NCBI GenBank assembly: GCA_038740345.1
Contig: JAVYMA010000001.1
Span: 87,992-151,991, forward strand
Source: Methanomassiliicoccales archaeon
GTDB taxonomy: Archaea > Thermoplasmatota > Thermoplasmata > Methanomassiliicoccales > UBA472
Direction of reading: 5' to 3'
DNA: 64,000 nucleotides
The notes beneath the pieces were generated by a model. It had not been told where the DNA came from. It was given only the letters and a program-made list of their open reading frames with translations, and searched no databases. The stretch's first letter is position 1, and each line of letters opens with the position of its first letter. The translations under genes were made by a program, and so were the position numbers. This document shows, in pieces, positions 28,270 through 39,188 of this stretch.

Positions 28270-31200
28270 TCAGAGCCTGCTCCAATCCCGTGGCTGCGGC
28301 TCAGGCTCCGGTGCCTGTTCCTCTTGCTCCTCCTTCGAGTTTTCCACCTCTACTCCTTCCTCGCCTGCTTCCCTCTCAAGCATCGGGGTCCTCTGTTCCT
28401 TCTGCTTCTTCGCAGGTGCGGTGCCGAGGTCGGCCTTGCACCTTGGACACGCTCCGGATATGGTACAATCCTTGCAAAGCACGGAGGAACAGGAGGGGCA
28501 TTTCATGACCGCTATGCCTCCATGGAACAGGCACCTTCTCCCTTTCAGCTCAGGCTGTTGGGCTTTGCGCTCCGCTGCTCGCTTCTCCTCTTTGTAGGCC
28601 CTGGAGTAGATATCTGGCTCCTCGTATGGGGACTTGCGCCGCGTGCGCGTCTCCTGTGCCATCTCCTGCTCAGCCTGCTGCGTCGCCCTTTCCACTAGAT
28701 CTTGAGCCGGCACTTCCACCTCCTCCGTGCTTGCCTGATGCATCTCCCTGAGTTTCACCTTAGGTGCCCGATATCCACGTCTGCCACGGAAGGTGTCCGA
28801 ATAGGCCATGAGGTGGCGTGCCGTGTAAATGCCTACACGCATGTTATGCATGATCCCGATGACTGACCTCTGATCCTCTGGTAGAGACATGACCTGACGC
28901 AACAACCTCTCTGTCTCCGCATCAGGTTTCTCCGCGGTGAACTCCATGGAGTTTACGGCCTCGATATATGCCAGAACTTTCTTTGCACCTATGACGTCTA
29001 CGCCTGGCAGATAGGCTTTCACATCTGCCAAGTTCAGGCCGTGCTGGGAGACGAAGGGGTTGCTATATGCCTCCAACAGCACGGTTCGCGAAGCCTCCTC
29101 GAATTCCGCCATTTCCTCTTTCGATAGGGAGCCTATGTCCACCGTATCTCTCTGCTCCAAAAAAGCGAATACGTCATCTAAGTCCGCATAGGGGATGCCG
29201 CACTCGCGGAATGCCTCTTCCTTATCTATCTCCATTCCCTTATGGAACTCTACTTCCAGCACCTTTTCTGCATATTTGGTGATGGTCTCTTTTCGACTCT
29301 GCTCCTCAACTATGCGTAGCCCCTCTCTCGCCAACTCAAGGCTAGGATCGAGCTCAAGGGCCTTCTGGAAGCACCGCCGTGCTTGCTCATGAGAACCAAG
29401 ACGCAAAAGAACCATACCCTTTCCATTCCAGGCCAAGGCATCAGTGCCATCCAATCCAATGGCCGAGTCGTACGCCTTTATGGCCTCATCCTCCCTTCCT
29501 AGCTTCTCCATTATATTGGCCTTAGCTATCCAGGCTCTTTGGTTATTAGGGTCCAGCTTCAGGGACTGCTCCACAGAGTGCGATGCTTTCTCGAAATCCC
29601 CGAGCTTGACCTGCACCCCACACAGCCGGGCCCACAGTCCAGCGTCCTTGGGCTCGAGGGCCACCGCTTTCTCATAAGATTCCACCGCATCCTGAGGCCG
29701 GTTCATCTCCTCCAACGCACGACCCTTCGAGCCATAAACCGCAGCATCCTCCACGCCCACGCCTATGGCGCGGTCAAAGCACTGCACGCTCTGGGCGTAC
29801 TGCCCTAATTTGAGCAGTGCCAAACCCTTATATTTCCAGATCTGCCCATCCTTGGAATCTAGGGACAGGGCCTTGTCAAAAGCGCTCACCGCCTCATCAT
29901 ATCGCTCCAGGGATGCCAGGGCCCTCCCCCTGTCAGAATGGTATTGTGCAGTCTCCGGCGACATGGATGTGCAGCGCTCGAAGGTCTGCAGCGCGGCCGC
30001 ATAATCATGCTGAAGCAGCTGTGCTCGTCCCATATTATCGAGGGTTCGAGCGTCGCTGGGATCCATATTGAACGCAGTCTCGAAGGCTTGCACCGCCTCA
30101 GGGTAGCGCCCTAGAGAAACCAAGGCCACCCCTTTCTTATTCCACAGCAATTTGTTCGTTTCGTCAAGGGCCAACGCAGCTTCATAAGCCCGCACCGCTT
30201 CTTCGCTCCTGCCCAACTTGTCCAAGGCCAGTGCTTTATCCACCAAGGCCGCTATGTTCTTCGGATCCAAACGCAGAACTTCCTCGCTCACTTGGACCAC
30301 TTGTTCAAGATCTCCCTTACTCATCACCACCGCTTTCTTGAGCTCCAAAATGTTCAAGTTGTCCGGCTCCAGCTCCAAGGCTCGGTCGAAGGACCTCAGC
30401 GCCTCATCCAGCCTATTCATCTTCTGCTCAGATATGCCTCGATCCACCCAAGCTTTGGCATTCCTTGGGTCTAGCTTTACTATACGCTCCGCCACCTTGA
30501 TTATGTCCTCATATCTGCCCAGCTGCTTGAGGCCATCCTTCTTGGCCTCCAGCACCCCTACATCCTTAGGGCTGAGCTTGAGAGCTTCGTCAAAGGCGTT
30601 CACCGCCTCCTCGAATCTACCCAGCTTGGCGAGAGTATGGCCCTTTCTAACCAAAAGGAAATGATTGTCCTGGTCCATCTTCAACACCTGCTCGTAGCAG
30701 CTCAGCGCCTCTTCATAGCGCTCGAGGCTTTCCAGCGCCACTCCTTTCGAGATCAGAAGGTTCTTATCCGCAGGATCCAGCTGAAGCGCTTGCTCGTAGC
30801 AGCTCAGCGCCTCCTCGAACCTATGCACTCCCTCCAAGGCCAGGCCCTTGGAGTAAAGTAGATGCTTGTCTTGAGGGGATAGCTCGCAGGCCTTGGAGAA
30901 AGCCTCCACGGCCTCTTCCGCACGAGACAAGGAGAACAGGCTATCCCCCATCACGCGCCAGAATATCACATTCTGGGGGAACTTTTGCACGCCCTCCTTT
31001 GAACGCTCCAATGCTAGTTCGAACTTCTCTGTCGTATAATAAGCGATGCTCAAATCTGCCAATATCTCCTCGTCGTCCGGCCATCTCTGCAGCAGAGAAT
31101 TGTAGGCCTCGATGGCCTCCTCCTTGCGCCCCAATCTATCCAAGGCTATGGCCTTGTCCTCCCAGGCCTCTTTATTGTTAGGATTCAACGCCAGGATCCG

Positions 31201-32607
31201 CTCGCAGCTTCGTAATACCTCCTTATCTTCTCCCAGATGTTTATACGCTTCTTTCACCGCGATTGCCGCGCTCTCCCTCTCTGGCTGCATCTTGAGGGAT
31301 TTCTCCAGCGGTTTGATGGCCTTTTCATACTCGCCTTTTAAGAAATGCGCCATGCCTAAATCATAAAGGATGCTGGCATCCTCTGCATGGTGGGTAGCGG
31401 TATGGCTCGCTACGGCGATGACATCATCATGCCTGCCCAGCTCTTTAAGCACTGTTCTCTTCCTTTCCAGAAGATCTCGATCGTTGGGATGTTTGGCCAA
31501 GGACTCATCTATGGCTGCGAGTGCATCCTCATACCTCTCTAGTTTCATCAGGGCCCCTATCATGATGCTCTCGATGAGAATGTCCTCCTTCTTAATCGAA
31601 AGGATGCGCGCGGCGGTGGATACGACCTCATGGTGACGCCCCAAAGCGCGTAGCACACTGCACTTCCCTTCCAGCCCTTCAAGGTAATCAGGGTCGAGCT
31701 CGAGCGAGCGATCGTAGGCCTTAAGGGCTTCCTCCAGACGGTTCAAGTATTCGAGAAGAGAGGCTACCTCCATCCAAGTATGCTTGTCGGCGGGATTGGA
31801 GCGGAGTGCTTCCTTATAATGCTGTATCGAACCTTGGAAATCCTTCTTCTCCCGCATTATCCTGGCCCGGTTAAGGTTGGCTAGGAAATTACGGGGGTCT
31901 ATCTGAAGGACTTGACCGAATGTGTTAGATGCTTCGTCATAACGCTTCGCCAGCATCAATGCCCTTCCTTTTCCCAGCAGGCTTTGAACGTTGGCCGGTT
32001 CGGCGGATAGCGATTCATCGAAGGCGCGCAGGGCTTCCTCGTATCTCTCTTTGGCCAGGAGTTCCTCTCCTTTTCTTCTCATCCAAGCCGCTCTCTGGCC
32101 CGTTTTGATGGCCAAGACCTCGTAGATGCTGGCATCCAATGGATCCAGTTCCTGCACCTTCTTAAAACACTCCAAAGCTTCAGGTCCTCTGCCTGCACGG
32201 TCAAGAATCCAGGCCTTTTCCAACCAGAGGGACTTATTGTTGGGGTTATGCGCTATCGACCATTCTAAGGCGATGATCGCATCCTCAATCTGTCCAGCCG
32301 CGGCATTCGCTCTGGACTTGGCAATTACGGCGTTGACATTCTCCGGCATGAACATGATCGCCCTATCTGCTGCTCTTCCCGCTTCTTCCATTCTTCCCAT
32401 CCGTGCATATAGCTCAGACAGTTTTGCATATGAGTCGGAGAATTCCTGGCGATGGATGACGTTAGGATTTACGCTGGCTTCTGCCAATGCCTCTTCGGCT
32501 CGTGCCAACGAGTCGTAATTGAGAACTGCCTCAGGCCCTTCCATGAGCTTTTGGGCTTTTTTAATCGCTTTTATTTCTTTATCAGTAAGTGAATCCAAGA
32601 TGCCCAC
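28270..32607 (-). CDS. giant tetratricopeptide-repeat protein with C-terminal zinc-binding domain
   Basis: About 1445 residues. From about residue 35 to 1120 it is almost entirely 34-residue TPR units (for example GRFEEAVNAFDEALKLSPKD), on the order of 30 copies. Next is a helical region of about 180 residues that I do not recognise, then a charged linker. A compact Cys/His cluster follows (CLFHGGIAVMKCPSCSSVLC, CKDC, CPRC), reminiscent of a B-box zinc finger, and then an acidic, proline-rich tail. No signal peptide or membrane segment, so it is probably a cytoplasmic scaffold. GGGGTG 7 bp upstream favours the GTG at 32607 over the GTG at 32622. It converges on truD with a 15 bp gap. Confidence 0.88.
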   Translation of the reverse strand: MGILDSLTDKEIKAIKKAQKLMEGPEAVLNYDSLARAEEALAEASVNPNVIHRQEFSDSYAKLSELYARMGRMEEAGRAADRAIMFMPENVNAVIAKSRANAAAGQIEDAIIALEWSIAHNPNNKSLWLEKAWILDRAGRGPEALECFKKVQELDPLDASIYEVLAIKTGQRAAWMRRKGEELLAKERYEEALRAFDESLSAEPANVQSLLGKGRALMLAKRYDEASNTFGQVLQIDPRNFLANLNRARIMREKKDFQGSIQHYKEALRSNPADKHTWMEVASLLEYLNRLEEALKAYDRSLELDPDYLEGLEGKCSVLRALGRHHEVVSTAARILSIKKEDILIESIMIGALMKLERYEDALAAIDESLAKHPNDRDLLERKRTVLKELGRHDDVIAVASHTATHHAEDASILYDLGMAHFLKGEYEKAIKPLEKSLKMQPERESAAIAVKEAYKHLGEDKEVLRSCERILALNPNNKEAWEDKAIALDRLGRKEEAIEAYNSLLQRWPDDEEILADLSIAYYTTEKFELALERSKEGVQKFPQNVIFWRVMGDSLFSLSRAEEAVEAFSKACELSPQDKHLLYSKGLALEGVHRFEEALSCYEQALQLDPADKNLLISKGVALESLERYEEALSCYEQVLKMDQDNHFLLVRKGHTLAKLGRFEEAVNAFDEALKLSPKDVGVLEAKKDGLKQLGRYEDIIKVAERIVKLDPRNAKAWVDRGISEQKMNRLDEALRSFDRALELEPDNLNILELKKAVVMSKGDLEQVVQVSEEVLRLDPKNIAALVDKALALDKLGRSEEAVRAYEAALALDETNKLLWNKKGVALVSLGRYPEAVQAFETAFNMDPSDARTLDNMGRAQLLQHDYAAALQTFERCTSMSPETAQYHSDRGRALASLERYDEAVSAFDKALSLDSKDGQIWKYKGLALLKLGQYAQSVQCFDRAIGVGVEDAAVYGSKGRALEEMNRPQDAVESYEKAVALEPKDAGLWARLCGVQVKLGDFEKASHSVEQSLKLDPNNQRAWIAKANIMEKLGREDEAIKAYDSAIGLDGTDALAWNGKGMVLLRLGSHEQARRCFQKALELDPSLELAREGLRIVEEQSRKETITKYAEKVLEVEFHKGMEIDKEEAFRECGIPYADLDDVFAFLEQRDTVDIGSLSKEEMAEFEEASRTVLLEAYSNPFVSQHGLNLADVKAYLPGVDVIGAKKVLAYIEAVNSMEFTAEKPDAETERLLRQVMSLPEDQRSVIGIMHNMRVGIYTARHLMAYSDTFRGRRGYRAPKVKLREMHQASTEEVEVPAQDLVERATQQAEQEMAQETRTRRKSPYEEPDIYSRAYKEEKRAAERKAQQPELKGRRCLFHGGIAVMKCPSCSSVLCKDCTISGACPRCKADLGTAPAKKQKEQRTPMLEREAGEEGVEVENSKEEQEEQAPEPEPQPRDWSRL

Positions 32608-32834
32608 TAGAGCACACCCCACTATTCAGGCATCAATGCCATCTTCTACTAAAATATCTTTCTGCCTGAAATATAAATTAAGAAATTAGTACCCTCATAT
32701 TCCATCGTTTTTCTTAAAAAAATTAGAGAGAGTGGACACTTTTTAATATGATTCTTTCACACGAGTCTATGATCTTGAGGGGCAAAGGATGGGAAAGTTT
32801 GACTTTTAAAATGAGAAGAGAAGGAAGAAAACTA

Positions 32835-33433: not shown

Positions 33434-35413
33434 ATGAGTGAGAAGACGATCGAATCGGTGATGGCAGAGGAGAGGAGGTTCGAGCCAAGTCCTGAGTTTC
33501 GGGCCAAGGCCAGGGTTAAGAGCATGGAAGAGTACGAACGCATGTACCGCGAATCCATATCCGACCCTGCGGGCTTCTGGGCGAAGATGGCTAAGCAGGA
33601 GATAGAGTGGTTCTCACCTTGGACCAACACATTCTCATGGGATGAGGAGAACGTCATCATCAAATGGTTCGAGGGGGGCAAGCTCAATGCCTCTTATAAT
33701 TGTCTGGACCGGCATGTCAAGAGCGAGCGCAAGAATAAGGCCGCCATCATTTGGCAGGGAGAGCCAGAAGAAGACGTTAGGACCCTGACTTACCAGCAGC
33801 TGCATCGAGAGGTATGCCGATGCGCCAACCTGCTGAAGGAGTTGGGCGTCTCCAAGGGAGACAGGGTTTCAATCTATCTTCCCATGATACCCGAGCTGGC
33901 AATCTCCATGCTGGCCTGCGCCAGAATCGGTGCTATCCATAGCGTTGTGTTCGGCGGCTTCAGCTCCGAGTCTCTGCGCGACCGCATAAACGATTCGAAT
34001 TGCAAGGTTCTCATTACGGCGGATGGGGCCTATCGATCCGGCAAGCATGTGCAGTTGAAACAGAATGCGGATGTGGCCATGGAGAAGGGGACCAGCATCG
34101 AAAAGGTTGTAGTAGTTAAACGAGCTGGCTTCAATATCGAGATGAAAGAAGGCAGGGACATTTGGTACCATGAGGCCATCGCCAGGCAATCTGACAAGTG
34201 TGAACCCGAATGGATGGACGCTGAGGACCCGCTTTTCATCCTCTACACCTCAGGCTCCACGGGAAAGCCCAAAGGGGTCCTGCACACCACCGGCGGCTAC
34301 ATGGTTTACGCCACAACTACTTTCAAGTACATCTTTGATTACCGCGATGAGGACACATACTGGTGCACGGCGGATATAGGGTGGATCACAGGACATTCTT
34401 ACATATTATATGGTCCTCTTAGCGCTGGGGCCACCAGCCTCATGTTCGAAGGCGTTCCCACCTATCCACAGGTGGATCGCTTCTGGCATATAGTGGAGAA
34501 GTTCAAGGTCAACATATTCTATACCGCGCCCACCGCGATCAGGTCATTGATGCGCGAGGGAGAGAAATGGCCTGCAGCGCATGACCTGAGTTCCTTGCGC
34601 TTGTTAGGTACCGTGGGCGAACCCATCAATCCTGAAGCCTGGATCTGGTACCATACTCATATCGGCAGGGAAAGATGTCCTATCGTGGACACGTGGTGGC
34701 AGACGGAGACTGGAGGCATATTGATCACCCCCCTTCCCGGTGCTACCACCACCAAACCGGGTTCTGCCACGAAACCATTCTTTGGCGTGGAACCTGCGAT
34801 TTACAAGGATGACGGTAGTGAGGCGGCAGTAAATGAAGGTGGATACCTGGTGATAAAGAGGCCATGGCCAGGCATCATGAGGACGGTGTTCGGTCAGCAC
34901 GAGCGATTCAAGGAGATCTATTGGTCGCGCTGGCCTGGAGTATACTTCACTGGAGATGGGGCACGTAAGGATGAGGATGGATATTTCTGGATCATGGGCC
35001 GAGTGGATGATGTAATCAAAGTCTCGGGCCATCGTATCGGTGCCGCGGAAGTGGAATCTGCCCTGGTTTCCCACCCCAAAGTGGCAGAAGCAGCAGTAGT
35101 TCCTATACCACATGACATAAAGGGAGAGGCCATCTATGCTTATGTAACCTTAAAGGCAGGGGTGCACGGAACTGAGGATTTAAAGAAAGAACTAGTTCAG
35201 CATGTACGCAAGATGGTAGGGCCGATTGCAACGCCAGAGGTCATACAATTCGCCGACGGCATGCCCAAGACGAGAAGCGGGAAGATCATGCGACGGATCT
35301 TGAGAAAGGTGGCCACAGGGGAAACGGAGAGCATAGGCGACACCAGCACCTTAGCTGATCCCTCTGTGGTGGACCGTCTCATCGAAGGGAGGATCGAGCT
35401 GAGAAAAGGCTGA
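33434..35413 (+). CDS. acs: acetyl-CoA synthetase (AMP-forming)
   Basis: Activates acetate to acetyl-CoA via acetyl-AMP. 659 residues, full length. Motifs: [15 protein letters not shown] (P-loop, about residue 270), [10 protein letters not shown] (acetate pocket region with the conserved Trp), [14 protein letters not shown], the hinge near [13 protein letters not shown], and the C-terminal [10 protein letters not shown] whose Lys is needed for adenylation and is the classical acetylation site in Acs. It converges, with a 16 bp gap, on a CoA-transferase/GNAT fusion gene. The upstream region has inverted repeats and a leader of roughly 80 bp after the best TATA box. Confidence 0.94.
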
Positions 35414-35429: not shown

Positions 35430-37298
35430 TTAGAACTCCGCCCGCACCATGATGAGGTCGTCCACCATCCTAGTCTCAATCTTCAGCCCGGAGCGGTGGA
35501 AGATGTTCAGCATGCGTATGTTGGTGGCCAAGATCTCCGCCGTGAAACCCTTTATCTTCACTTCCTTTGCATAATCTAAAAGCGACTTGAACAGCTCGGT
35601 GCCAAGGCCAACATTCTGCCAATCGTCGCGCACGGCCAGTGCTACTTCCGCATAGCCTGTCTTAGGATCCGTATGATAGGTTCCTATCCCTATGATCATC
35701 GGACCCTCCTCTCGTCGGATCAAGGCTACTACGGCCATACGCGCATCATAGTCTACATTCATGATGACTTCACGGATTTCCTTAGGCATCATCTTCTCAT
35801 AGGACATGAACCTCTCATACACACTCTTCTGCGAGAGAGAATAGAAGAAATCCTTCACCATCTCTTGATCAGTAGGCTTTAAAGCTCTTATGCGCACGGG
35901 TTGGCCACGAAGCCATATAGTCCGTTGTAGGTGCTCTGGATAAGGACGTCCTAGGAAGGGTGCAGGAGATACCTCTGACCTCACATACCCTCGTCGCTTC
36001 GCCTGCGCCAGCAGGGCAGCGCGGAACTTGGGGTGGGCGACCTCGATTAGCTCGAGAGCACGCTGCTCTATGCTTTTACCTCTCAACTCCGCTATTCCAT
36101 ATTCCGTGACGACATAGTGCACATCGCAACGGTTCACCGTTACGGCACTGCCCTCAGGCAAGGTCGGAACGATGCGTGATATGGAGCCATTCTGAGCCGT
36201 CGATGGCAGAGCTATAATCCCTTTACCGCCTTTGGACATGGAGGCACCGCGCATGAAATCCGCAAGACCTCCTATCCCCGAATAGAACTCATACTCCAAC
36301 TGATCGGCGCAAACCTGTCCGGTCAAATCCACAGAGAGGGCAGAATTTATCGCTACCATTCTTTTATTGGCTCTTATAGTGCATGGATTGTTGATATAGG
36401 AAGAGGGATAGAACTCGAATAATTCGTTCCCGTTCACATATTCATACAATCTGCTGCTTCCCATGGCGAAAGAGGCGAGAACCTTTCCGGGATGGATCGA
36501 TTTCTTGGCGCATGTCACCACCCCTTTTTCAACCAGTTCTATCAGCCCGTCAGAGAACATTTCCGTGTGGACGCCCAGGTCCTTCTTATCTCTCAGATAG
36601 GCCAGAACCGCGTCGGGTATGGAACCGTATCCGATTTGGATGGTATCCCCATTCTCTACCAACGCAGCCACATGCCTGCCTATTTCGTTTATGCGCTCCA
36701 ACTCCTCCGGGATGCGCTTCCACTCCAGAAGAGGTTCTTCATGCCAAACGAGGGCGTCAATTTCTGATATATGGAGGTACGAATCCCCAAAGGTGCGCGG
36801 CATCCTAGGATTCACTTGAGCGATGACGTGTTCTGCGGCCTTAGTGGCGCTCTTGGTGATGTCCACGCTTACTCCTAAAGAACATCTTCCCTCAGAGTCT
36901 GGAGGGGCCACTTGGATGAGAGCATAATCAATGTGAATTAAGCCTTCCTCAAAAAGGCTGCCCATCTCGGAGAGATGGGTAGGGGTGTATTCTCCCCGAC
37001 CCTCCCTGACAGCCAGCCTCACCTCCGGACCTACGAATAGGGCGTTGAATCGGAAGTTATGTTTCATCATCTCTCCGCGCTGCGGAGATAGGAATAACGA
37101 AAGAGCTTGGATTATCTCGTTGTCCCCCATCTCACTAGCCGACTTAACTAGTTCTTTGACCAGCGCTTGCGGCTCTCCTGCTGCGGTACCGATGAAAACA
37201 GTCCTGCCAGGAGCTATCATTCGTACCGCTTCCTCAGCGGTTTTGACTTTGCTCTTATAAGGCCCCAAGAGCTCTGGTCCCATCCCTGACATCCACAT
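35430..37298 (-). CDS. acetyl-CoA hydrolase/CoA-transferase family protein fused to a GNAT domain
   Basis: 622 residues. Residues 10-440 are the acetyl-CoA hydrolase/4-hydroxybutyrate CoA-transferase fold: IQIGYGSIPDAVL, the VHTEMFSDG motif with the Glu expected to form the covalent CoA intermediate, and GIGGLADFMRGA (usual GGQxDF, here GGLADF). After a short linker, about 460-622 is a GNAT acetyltransferase with VALAVRDDWQNVGLGTELFK as the acetyl-CoA motif. It lies 27 bp after the sensor kinase gene on the same strand and converges on acs. Regulating Acs by lysine acetylation is an attractive inference. The start could be the ATG at 37283, given the TATATAT box at about 37300-37306. Confidence 0.85.
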   Translation of the reverse strand: MWMSGMGPELLGPYKSKVKTAEEAVRMIAPGRTVFIGTAAGEPQALVKELVKSASEMGDNEIIQALSLFLSPQRGEMMKHNFRFNALFVGPEVRLAVREGRGEYTPTHLSEMGSLFEEGLIHIDYALIQVAPPDSEGRCSLGVSVDITKSATKAAEHVIAQVNPRMPRTFGDSYLHISEIDALVWHEEPLLEWKRIPEELERINEIGRHVAALVENGDTIQIGYGSIPDAVLAYLRDKKDLGVHTEMFSDGLIELVEKGVVTCAKKSIHPGKVLASFAMGSSRLYEYVNGNELFEFYPSSYINNPCTIRANKRMVAINSALSVDLTGQVCADQLEYEFYSGIGGLADFMRGASMSKGGKGIIALPSTAQNGSISRIVPTLPEGSAVTVNRCDVHYVVTEYGIAELRGKSIEQRALELIEVAHPKFRAALLAQAKRRGYVRSEVSPAPFLGRPYPEHLQRTIWLRGQPVRIRALKPTDQEMVKDFFYSLSQKSVYERFMSYEKMMPKEIREVIMNVDYDARMAVVALIRREEGPMIIGIGTYHTDPKTGYAEVALAVRDDWQNVGLGTELFKSLLDYAKEVKIKGFTAEILATNIRMLNIFHRSGLKIETRMVDDLIMVRAEF

Positions 37299-37325
37299 TA
37301 TATATGCGACTCTGTCAAATAATCA

Positions 37326-39188
37326 TTATCCCTTTTTAGCCTCGATGCGGCGGTAGCGGGCGGCAGGCACGGTTATAATGAATCGAACCCCCTTGCCCGG
37401 AACTCCGTTCTCTTTAATAGCGATATCAGTTATGCTCAAAATCTCTCTGCTAAGGAAGAGGCCAAATCCCAAATTTTGTCCCACTCCTCTTTGGAAGATG
37501 CGTTCCTTATCACTCTCAGGAATCCCCAGGCCATCATCCTCATAAATCAACCTCAGCTCTTCATTCTCTATTACGCAATAAAAAACGGCCTTACTAGCTC
37601 TTACCCCATGGCGCAGTGTATTATCAATCAAATTATAGATTACCTTAACTAACATAGTGTCAGCGCAAACCTCGTAACCGCTAACTTCGTTCAATACTCG
37701 TATCTTAGCATTCTCCACCAATTCGCTCGTAGCCTTTTCTATAATTTCTCTCAGATTCAGCCAAACAGGCTCTTGTGAATATAGTTCCTGATACATATTG
37801 GCAAAATCGAAGACCTTCTGGAGGTTTACAGCCTGACGATCTATAGAACGGAAAAGTTCCATAGTGCTCTTTTCCGAAGATCGCATCTTGCCCAATTCCG
37901 CCTGTCCCCTTATGACGGTGAGGATGTTATAGCTATCATGGCGTGTTATGCTGCCTAAAAGATTCAATTTCTTGTTCGCCAAGGCCAATTTGTTTAATGC
38001 TTCTCTTTCCTCTGTGATATCCTGAATGAATCCCTCCAGGGCCACCACTTCGCCATTCTCCGACAATATTCCCCTGCCCTGCTCCCGGACCCAACGAATC
38101 TTTCCATCCGCTCTTCTTATACGGTAAAGAATAAAGAACGGAACATTTTGCTGGATGGCTTCCTGAACTTTTGTCCACACCATATCGAGGTCCTCGGGAA
38201 GGATAAGATCGGCATAAGCAACCTTGTTGTTGTGGATGAGATCCGAGGATGTGTAGCCAGTCAATGGCAGACAGCCCTCGCTTACGAACTCCATAGTCCA
38301 ATAGGGATCGTTACGGCACCGATAGGCCATTCCAGGAAGATTGCTCATGAGAGTCTGCAATCTGCGATTGCTTTCCCTTAGCTCTCTTTCCACTCTTATC
38401 CTATCACTGATATCTCTTGATACGCCTATGACCCTGCATGGCTTACCATTCTGGTCCAAGACGATGGATGCCGTAACTTCAACGTCAATCAGGTTTCCGT
38501 CCTTTCTTTTTTGCTTTACGACGGTCCTATAAGGCTGCATCAGTTCAGGGTGCTCATGGAAGTTTTGCAGCCTCCGCCTCATTTCTGCCATGAGGCGCTC
38601 GGATGATTCCTGATCTATGGCATCAACAGCGCTCTCCTGCATAGCTTCCTCAGGAGTCATTCCTCTTAAGTTCATGATGCTAGGAGAAATGTACGTGAAA
38701 CGCAGAGTGTCTATATCCAGCTCAAAAATAACATCTTTAACGTTTTCCGCTAAAAGACGATATTTTCTTTCGCTGTCCCGCAAAGCTTTTTGTGCGCAGC
38801 TCCTCTCTGCAGCCTTCTTAATCATGTTCCCTAATTCGATGAATTGGACTCGTGGCTCTGCTCCCTTCTGCAGGTAGAAATCCGCGCCCTCGTTTAAGGC
38901 TTGTATCGCCACCTCCTCCCTGCCTTTTCCGGTGAATAGTATGAAAGGCACCTCAAGACCTGATTGCCTAAGCCATTTGAGCAGGGAGATGCCGTCCTCA
39001 ACTGGCATCTGGTAGTCACAGACTACAGCATCGAATTGCTGGCTGAGCAGGAGAGCTTTTGCCATATTCGCAGACGAGCACACCGAAACCTCATATTTGA
39101 AAAGGTCTTCAAGGAATACCTTCGCTACTTCGCATAATGATGGCTCATCGTCCACCAACAGCACTTTGAGGCTCGAAGCGTCTGACAT
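37326..39188 (-). CDS. hybrid sensor histidine kinase (REC-PAS-PAS-kinase)
   Basis: 620 residues. The N-terminal response-regulator receiver has LLVDDEP at the start, the phospho-acceptor in VVCDYQMP near residue 59 and FTGKG. It is followed by two PAS/PAC domains (about 135-280 and 285-405), a dimerisation helix with SITRHDSYNILTVIRG carrying the candidate phospho-His, and a HATPase domain with NLIDNTLRHG and DDGLGIPESDKERIF and GFGLFLSREI. No membrane segment, so it is a cytoplasmic sensor. It precedes the CoA-transferase/GNAT gene by 27 bp, likely one transcript. An ATAATATAAC about 35 bp upstream could be its TATA box. Confidence 0.9.
   Translation of the reverse strand: MSDASSLKVLLVDDEPSLCEVAKVFLEDLFKYEVSVCSSANMAKALLLSQQFDAVVCDYQMPVEDGISLLKWLRQSGLEVPFILFTGKGREEVAIQALNEGADFYLQKGAEPRVQFIELGNMIKKAAERSCAQKALRDSERKYRLLAENVKDVIFELDIDTLRFTYISPSIMNLRGMTPEEAMQESAVDAIDQESSERLMAEMRRRLQNFHEHPELMQPYRTVVKQKRKDGNLIDVEVTASIVLDQNGKPCRVIGVSRDISDRIRVERELRESNRRLQTLMSNLPGMAYRCRNDPYWTMEFVSEGCLPLTGYTSSDLIHNNKVAYADLILPEDLDMVWTKVQEAIQQNVPFFILYRIRRADGKIRWVREQGRGILSENGEVVALEGFIQDITEEREALNKLALANKKLNLLGSITRHDSYNILTVIRGQAELGKMRSSEKSTMELFRSIDRQAVNLQKVFDFANMYQELYSQEPVWLNLREIIEKATSELVENAKIRVLNEVSGYEVCADTMLVKVIYNLIDNTLRHGVRASKAVFYCVIENEELRLIYEDDGLGIPESDKERIFQRGVGQNLGFGLFLSREILSITDIAIKENGVPGKGVRFIITVPAARYRRIEAKKG

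Follow-up and report, generated by a model that had tools for sequence, protein, structure and literature searches.

A fusion of a coenzyme A (CoA)-transferase (CoAT) with a GNAT acetyltransferase is encoded beside acs, the gene for AMP-forming acetyl-CoA synthetase (Acs), in a 64,000-nucleotide stretch of a Methanomassiliicoccales genome (the window). On balance, genome and protein comparisons favour the view that the fusion is an Acs-directed, Pat-like lysine acetyltransferase, in which the CoAT replaces the usual sensor domain. At the genome level, the evidence linking the fusion to Acs is strong. Because the gene pair is conserved in related archaea, a chance arrangement is excluded for it.

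The source genome (1.79 Mb, 47 contigs) has the methanogenesis marker mcrA. In the window, acs and the fusion gene stand tail to tail with a gap of 16 bp, and a sensor kinase gene lies upstream of the fusion on the same strand, 27 bp away (Table 1). An earlier reading of the letters alone (the sequence-only reading) had described this gene order and the domain order of the proteins, and ORF (open reading frame) coordinates and Pfam matches bore out both. The HTEM (E246) and GGLADF (L345) motifs of the fusion and the SGKIMRR (K617) motif of Acs were also present as it had stated. Acs had the Pfam domains ACAS_N, AMP-binding and AMP-binding_C, and scored above the acetate--CoA ligase equivalog cut-off TIGR02188 (1042.9 vs 724.95 bits).

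Co-occurrence and gene neighbourhoods in the order

Across 96 genomes of the order with a completeness of at least 85%, the fusion was found in 27 (E ≤ 1e-60) and Acs in 31 (E ≤ 1e-150). Two entries were corrected: the Acs of G016 was counted from pieces, and the fusion of G433 from its GNAT tail, found at a contig end and convergent with acs. Both genes were then present in 28 genomes, Acs only in four (G004, G007, G024 and G030), the fusion only in none, and neither in 64. By genome, Fisher's p was 3e-20, assuming an independence that does not hold; by genus (11 both, 4 Acs only, 0 fusion only, 10 neither) it was 5e-4, the genera not being fully independent either. Co-occurrence across genomes was the test that the sequence-only reading had set for itself, and the result was in its favour, the two genes both co-occurring and lying close together.

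Among 61 relatives, the fusion query matched 29, 25 of them over the CoAT and four over the GNAT only (G007, G010, G013 and G024). The trace in G024 was rejected as a fusion: only 57 residues matched, in a short frame at 2.2 kb from acs. Adjoining acs there is a gene for a 231-aa protein with no fusion match listed, and the genome was kept as one with Acs and without the fusion.

Proximity was assessed in the 34 fusion genomes of the order, as the distance between match ends. An Acs-family gene lay on the same contig within 25 kb of the fusion in 30 of them. All 24 opposite-strand pairs were convergent, 12 within 1 kb, eight at 4.4–5.7 kb and four at 7.5–24 kb. In six genomes (family f5) the fusion was in tandem with an Acs paralogue (44–49% identical), 160–237 bp apart; since these six also hold a separate true Acs match (in two pieces in G040), the fusion there has moved to the paralogue. 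The remaining four genomes had the fusion and Acs on different contigs: in G016, G017 and G419 the fusion was at the edge of its contig, or the contig was short, and in G054 the fusion gene was split, with its parts at the ends of two contigs and acs beside one of them. In G275, G419 and G420, the fusion stood directly tail to tail with a more distant acyl-CoA synthetase (27–28% identical to Acs). A GNAT gene beside acs is also the arrangement of acuABC-type control.

A gene for a 231-aa protein (L098, 7300-7995; L099, 8461-9156), on the same strand as the true acs of family f5 and overlapping it by 4 bp, may be a further partner of Acs.

Fusions outside the order

The fusion was found in 46 of 391 sampled phylum genomes (E ≤ 1e-50), 25 of these outside the order. 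A gene for an ADP-forming acyl-CoA synthetase (ACD) adjoined it in 17 of the 25, and in 16 of these 17 so did an AAA_26-DRTGG gene, resembling the N-terminal part of phosphate acetyltransferase (Pta-N). Stop and start codons often overlapped in these clusters. In the stretches fetched for the other eight (G259, G382, G327, G347, G355, G069, G094 and G091), neither an ACD nor a Pta-N-like gene was found. Family f27 (G065, G074) had the series fusion–ACD–PtaN–acs. In f5 and f27 the linkage to an Acs-family gene has arisen anew, and what the fusion neighbourhoods have in common is the acetate/acetyl-CoA step, no matter which enzyme carries it out.

In a CoAT tree of 51 fusions and five bacterial stand-alone enzymes, the order formed one clade (100/100). 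The tree fits mainly vertical descent; the bacterial branches were long and their placing was not relied on. From plasmid records, 318 matched the fusion, none over 80% of the query. A scan of named genomes with a narrow pattern set returned only two loci, both from metagenome-assembled Methanomassiliicoccales genomes of the same genus (85% and 78% identity). Some bacterial proteins bear the NCBI name bifunctional acetyl-CoA hydrolase/transferase and GNAT, and archaea are probably not alone in having this architecture.

The fusion protein

Pfam placed AcetylCoA_hydro at aa 16-188, AcetylCoA_hyd_C at aa 280-433 and GNAT at aa 470-606, with the acyl-CoA-type domain N-terminal to the GNAT. The CoAT part is complete, and matched the PDB entries 9vag (E 2e-130, aa 14-439) and 3eh7 (E 1.7e-118). 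The fusion stayed below the NCBIfam equivalog cut-off TIGR03948 (262.9 vs 674.8 bits). We aligned 54 of 56 fusion-like ORFs, excluding two matches with fewer than 400 aligned residues. Position 246 was Glu in 52 rows and Asp in two, both of them proteins that carry an additional histone deacetylase (HDAC) part. Where butyrate/4-hydroxybutyrate CoA-transferases have GGQxDF, the window fusion has GGLADF. Position 345 was Q in 39 rows, L in four, H in four, S in four and M in three, with GGL found in the window's own genus and in genus g5. Being limited to four rows against 39 with Q, the change to GGL says little about the fusion family, and as a marker of lost activity it was rejected as lineage-specific.

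For the GNAT part, the solved relatives (PDB, E ≤ 0.001) were the PatZ-type 9it0/9isq, 4nxy/4u5y (SlPatA), Pat (4orf/4oll/4onu/4ava) and 3f8k. Residue 809 of the 9it0 chain, with which Glu551 aligns, is presumably the catalytic Glu of SePat; Glu551 is conserved in all 52 rows that cover the position. The P-loop of the window protein (QNVGLG) satisfies the pattern Q/R-x-x-G-x-G/A. The sequence-only reading had drawn a parallel between the fusion and bacterial Pat, and the comparison supports it: among solved structures the GNAT is closest to the Pat enzymes, and the catalytic Glu is kept. One of these structures, 4u5y, is SlPat with Salmonella Acs (PMC12607858).

Long N-terminal extensions of some fusion ORFs (L057, L074) were judged to be spurious starts, with no Pfam domain and low complexity. 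An AlphaFold2 model of the fusion from three rows had a mean pLDDT (predicted local distance difference test) of 32.8 and a pTM (predicted template modelling score) of 0.24, and nothing was taken from it. In G434 the fusion is in two overlapping pieces (L093, 6240-8043), possibly a frameshift, still convergent with acs.

Table 1 Features of the fusion locus, in window coordinates.
Feature	Position	Strand	Remarks
acs, AMP-forming acetyl-CoA synthetase	33434..35413	+	659 aa; proposed target, convergent with the fusion
Codon of Acs Lys617	35282..35284	+	aligned with Lys609 of Salmonella Acs
Codon of Acs Leu649	35378..35380	+	aligned with Leu641 of Salmonella Acs
CoAT–GNAT fusion gene	35430..37298	-	622 aa; full-length homologues found
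Pat-like GNAT acetyltransferase part, aa 451-622	35430..35948	-	best PDB matches
GNAT P-loop Q-N-V-G-L-G, aa 561-566	35601..35618	-	54-row alignment
Codon of GNAT Glu551	35646..35648	-	aligns with residue 809 (Glu) of the 9it0 chain
4-hydroxybutyrate/acetate-type CoA-transferase part, aa 14-439	35982..37259	-	PF02550 and PF13336; PDB 9vag
Codon of Leu345 (GGLADF; usually GGQ)	36264..36266	-	alignment of 54 fusions
Codon of catalytic-type Glu246 (HTEM)	36561..36563	-	alignment of 54 fusions
REC-PAS-PAS sensor kinase	37326..39188	-	620 aa; Pfam domains; neighbour, not judged part of the system

Proposed Acs target site, PatZ-type proteins and deacetylases

Salmonella Acs is described as acetylated by Pat at Lys609, with Leu641 needed for recognition by Pat (PMC11254643). 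The match of Lys617 and Leu649 of the window Acs to these sites may be taken as a sign of acetylation, a weak one because the motif is general in Acs.

The fusion is missing from genus g6 (G007, G010, G013), the only genus in which a full PatZ-type (ACD–GNAT) protein was found (in G010, in two contig pieces). Of the 61 relatives, the 25 with the fusion gave no match that spanned both parts of the PatZ-type protein. The synthetase part of the g6 protein (L079, 1018-3744) keeps the SHTGSLAG stretch. In bacterial type I and II enzymes, the synthetase domain is described as inactive, without the catalytic His (PMC8556138).

An HDAC gene was present in 24 of the 25 fusion genomes. SIR2 was found in none of them and in one of the 61 relatives overall (G030), where it lies ~8 kb from a fusion-less acs (L092, 16414-17130). 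In the source genome, the HDAC gene did not share a cluster with the fusion as in acuABC; the two were joined only in G069 and G094 (2 of 389 phylum genomes), as a single CoAT–GNAT–HDAC chain of 1011 and 1041 aa, respectively. These two proteins keep the GNAT Glu and have lost the CoAT Glu (now Asp) and the GG motif. The HDAC part of G094 matched HDAC1/2 best. That of G069 and the HDAC-family protein on contig C3 of the source genome share the HHA, DIDxHHG and GGGGY stretches, presumably the site of the catalytic and zinc-binding residues. Near the HDAC-family gene of the source genome is a gene (L113, 1170-1805) whose Csa3-type CARF match stays under the family cut-off.

Proposed function and known systems

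In bacteria, it is well established that acetylation controls Acs. The fusion would be a Pat-like acetyltransferase with a CoA-transferase as its regulatory domain, where PatZ has an ADP-forming synthetase-like domain. With acetyl-CoA plentiful, the GNAT would acetylate the catalytic Lys617 of the neighbouring Acs, and the costly activation of acetate would stop. The CoAT may bind acyl-CoA, perhaps as a Glu246-CoA thioester, and tune the GNAT. A zinc-type HDAC-family enzyme encoded elsewhere would remove the mark, as AcuC does in Bacillus. The domains, the catalytic residues, the recurrent linkage to enzymes of acetate activation, the PatZ-type protein of a fusion-less genus and the deacetylase part in two relatives are observed; that Acs is acetylated, and in which direction, we infer, and likewise the sensing step and the eraser. 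The adjacency of Acs and the fusion, kept across related archaea, suggests an unstudied on/off switch for acetate use. The sequence-only reading had proposed acetyl-CoA-responsive control of Acs by a unit that included the kinase; the fusion–Acs link and the Pat-like GNAT with its catalytic Glu speak for such control, whereas the kinase drops out of the unit.

The review by Lammers (PMC8556138) divides bacterial protein acetyltransferases into five types according to their domains. Types I and II have an NDP-forming synthetase domain that is inactive; type III has a different ligand-binding domain, type IV is little more than the GNAT, and type V has GNATs in tandem. The five-type scheme set out there includes no CoA-transferase type. 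The archaeal Pats studied are given as single-domain GNATs, the common archaeal form (PMC12607858), and a survey of archaeal fusions mentions neither GNAT nor CoA-transferase in its main text (PMC11237513). Our literature searches, in which subscription journals were thinly covered, returned no paper on a CoA-transferase–GNAT fusion.

By comparison, the fusion would work most like PatZ or AcuA, and belongs to neither architecture. With PatZ and SePat it shares a C-terminal GNAT of the same subgroup, the Glu aligned with 9it0 residue 809, an acyl-CoA-related N-terminal domain, and Acs as proposed target. It differs in that the N-terminal domain is a CoA-transferase with a catalytic-type Glu, not an inactive ACD, and in that its gene is beside acs. 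Bacillus has acsA beside acuABC, with AcuA as writer and the HDAC-type AcuC as eraser (PMC8556138). The likeness to AcuA–AcuC of Bacillus subtilis lies in the GNAT writer gene beside acsA, the zinc-type HDAC as candidate eraser and the lack of a sirtuin in the fusion genomes. AcuA, however, has no CoA-transferase, and the HDAC gene is unlinked in the source genome and fused to CoAT–GNAT in two relatives. 4-hydroxybutyrate/butyryl-CoA:acetate CoA-transferases (3gk7, 9vag, TIGR03948) resemble the whole CoAT, including the Glu of HTE, but the fusion is far below the equivalog cut-off and has GGLADF and the extra GNAT. In mycobacterial Pat (type III), a ligand-binding domain, here for cAMP, precedes the GNAT that modifies Acs. 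The fusion would share this layout, with a CoA-transferase in place of the cAMP-binding domain.

By comparative genomics, this methanogen order would have a two-domain candidate enzyme of its own, a defined target site and a candidate eraser. If true, this would add to the sensor domains found with Pat GNATs, and offer a handle on the gating of acetate assimilation in methyl-reducing methanogens, which have little energy to spare. A bolder version seems rather unlikely to us: a protein lysine acetyltransferase of a sixth architecture, old in the phylum, in which a chemically live CoAT would sense the acyl-CoA pool by way of a covalent enzyme-CoA intermediate, and signal to a GNAT switching Acs or ACD. 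The CoAT–GNAT–HDAC proteins would then be reader, writer and eraser in one polypeptide, a self-contained reversible switch in two lineages.

Alternative explanations

Several observations weigh against an Acs-directed acetyltransferase. SGK with the equivalent of Lys617 occurs in every Acs-family protein listed; it is general in Acs, as expected of a catalytic residue, so the motif alone is not evidence of acetylation. The GNAT P-loop glycine 564 is Arg in 10 of the 54 rows. Glu246, kept in 52 of 54, is more conserved than a mere sensor needs, and catalysis may be the main job of the CoAT. Outside the order, the neighbour is mostly ACD, not Acs. Within it, G004, G024 and G030 have Acs, and neither the fusion nor a full PatZ-type match was found in them. 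The exchange for PatZ is one event in one genus, and one member of that genus, G013 (63% complete), gave no Acs match. Of the 36 fusion-less genomes, 17 have the HDAC gene as well, and in the source genome (contig C3) this gene is not linked to the fusion. Domain order and Acs sequence are reported to affect which Pat accepts which Acs (PMC4053389), a caution for the present case.

A somewhat unlikely alternative is that the protein is mainly a metabolic CoA-transferase, making or draining acetyl-CoA (acetate <-> other acyl-CoA) beside Acs or ACD, with the GNAT as an accessory that acetylates its own CoAT or a small molecule. The conservation of Glu246 and of GGQ (39 of 54 rows) argues for it, as do the closest solved relatives, which are 4-hydroxybutyrate CoA-transferases (E 2e-130), and the several types of acetate/acetyl-CoA enzymes among the neighbours. 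Yet the two HDAC-bearing relatives lost the CoAT Glu and the GG motif while keeping the GNAT Glu, so that what matters, in these two at least, is not the CoAT; and the PatZ-type protein of the fusion-less genus would replace the function of the GNAT, not of a CoA-transferase. We consider it quite improbable that the GNAT is a lysine acetyltransferase aimed mainly at ACD or another protein, with the Acs neighbourhood reflecting shared regulation only. This would suit the 17 of 25 fusions outside the order that adjoin ACD, 16 of these ACDs showing the ASHTG stretch, which presumably holds the phospho-His, and the ACD query matched 60 of the 61 relatives. Within the order, however, the fusion is absent from all 64 Acs-less genomes although ACD is near-universal in the 61 relatives searched, and in f5 and f27 the fusion became linked to Acs-family genes anew.

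That kinase and fusion form one signalling operon controlling acs is highly improbable. They are on the same strand and 27 bp apart in the window, and in G014 a 527-aa REC-PAS relative of the kinase (35% identity over 275 aa) lies downstream of the fusion, though on the opposite strand. None of the other neighbourhoods examined, including that of the same-genus G001, has a codirectional kinase upstream, and kinase matches elsewhere are weak or differently built. The kinase (Pfam REC, two PAS and HATPase_c) was matched at E ≤ 1e-60 in five of the 61 genomes including the source, the other four at 31–40% identity over part of the length, and in none of the same-genus genomes among them. In G001 no kinase lies between the fusion and a metallo-beta-lactamase gene. 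As a partner, the kinase that the sequence-only reading had counted into the unit was rejected, since its place beside the fusion is not conserved; we judge it a local neighbour, and chance is not excluded for its adjacency to the fusion. The closest parallels elsewhere are the REC-PAS relative in G014 and a 125-aa piece beside the fusion in G008.

Other genes at the locus

A 1450-aa TPR protein is encoded next to acs in the window (28270-32622). Its relatives lie near acs in G002 and G006 (1431-1529 aa) and, in shorter form, near the fusion in G065 and G074. A similar-looking ORF of 1441 aa adjoins acs in G007.

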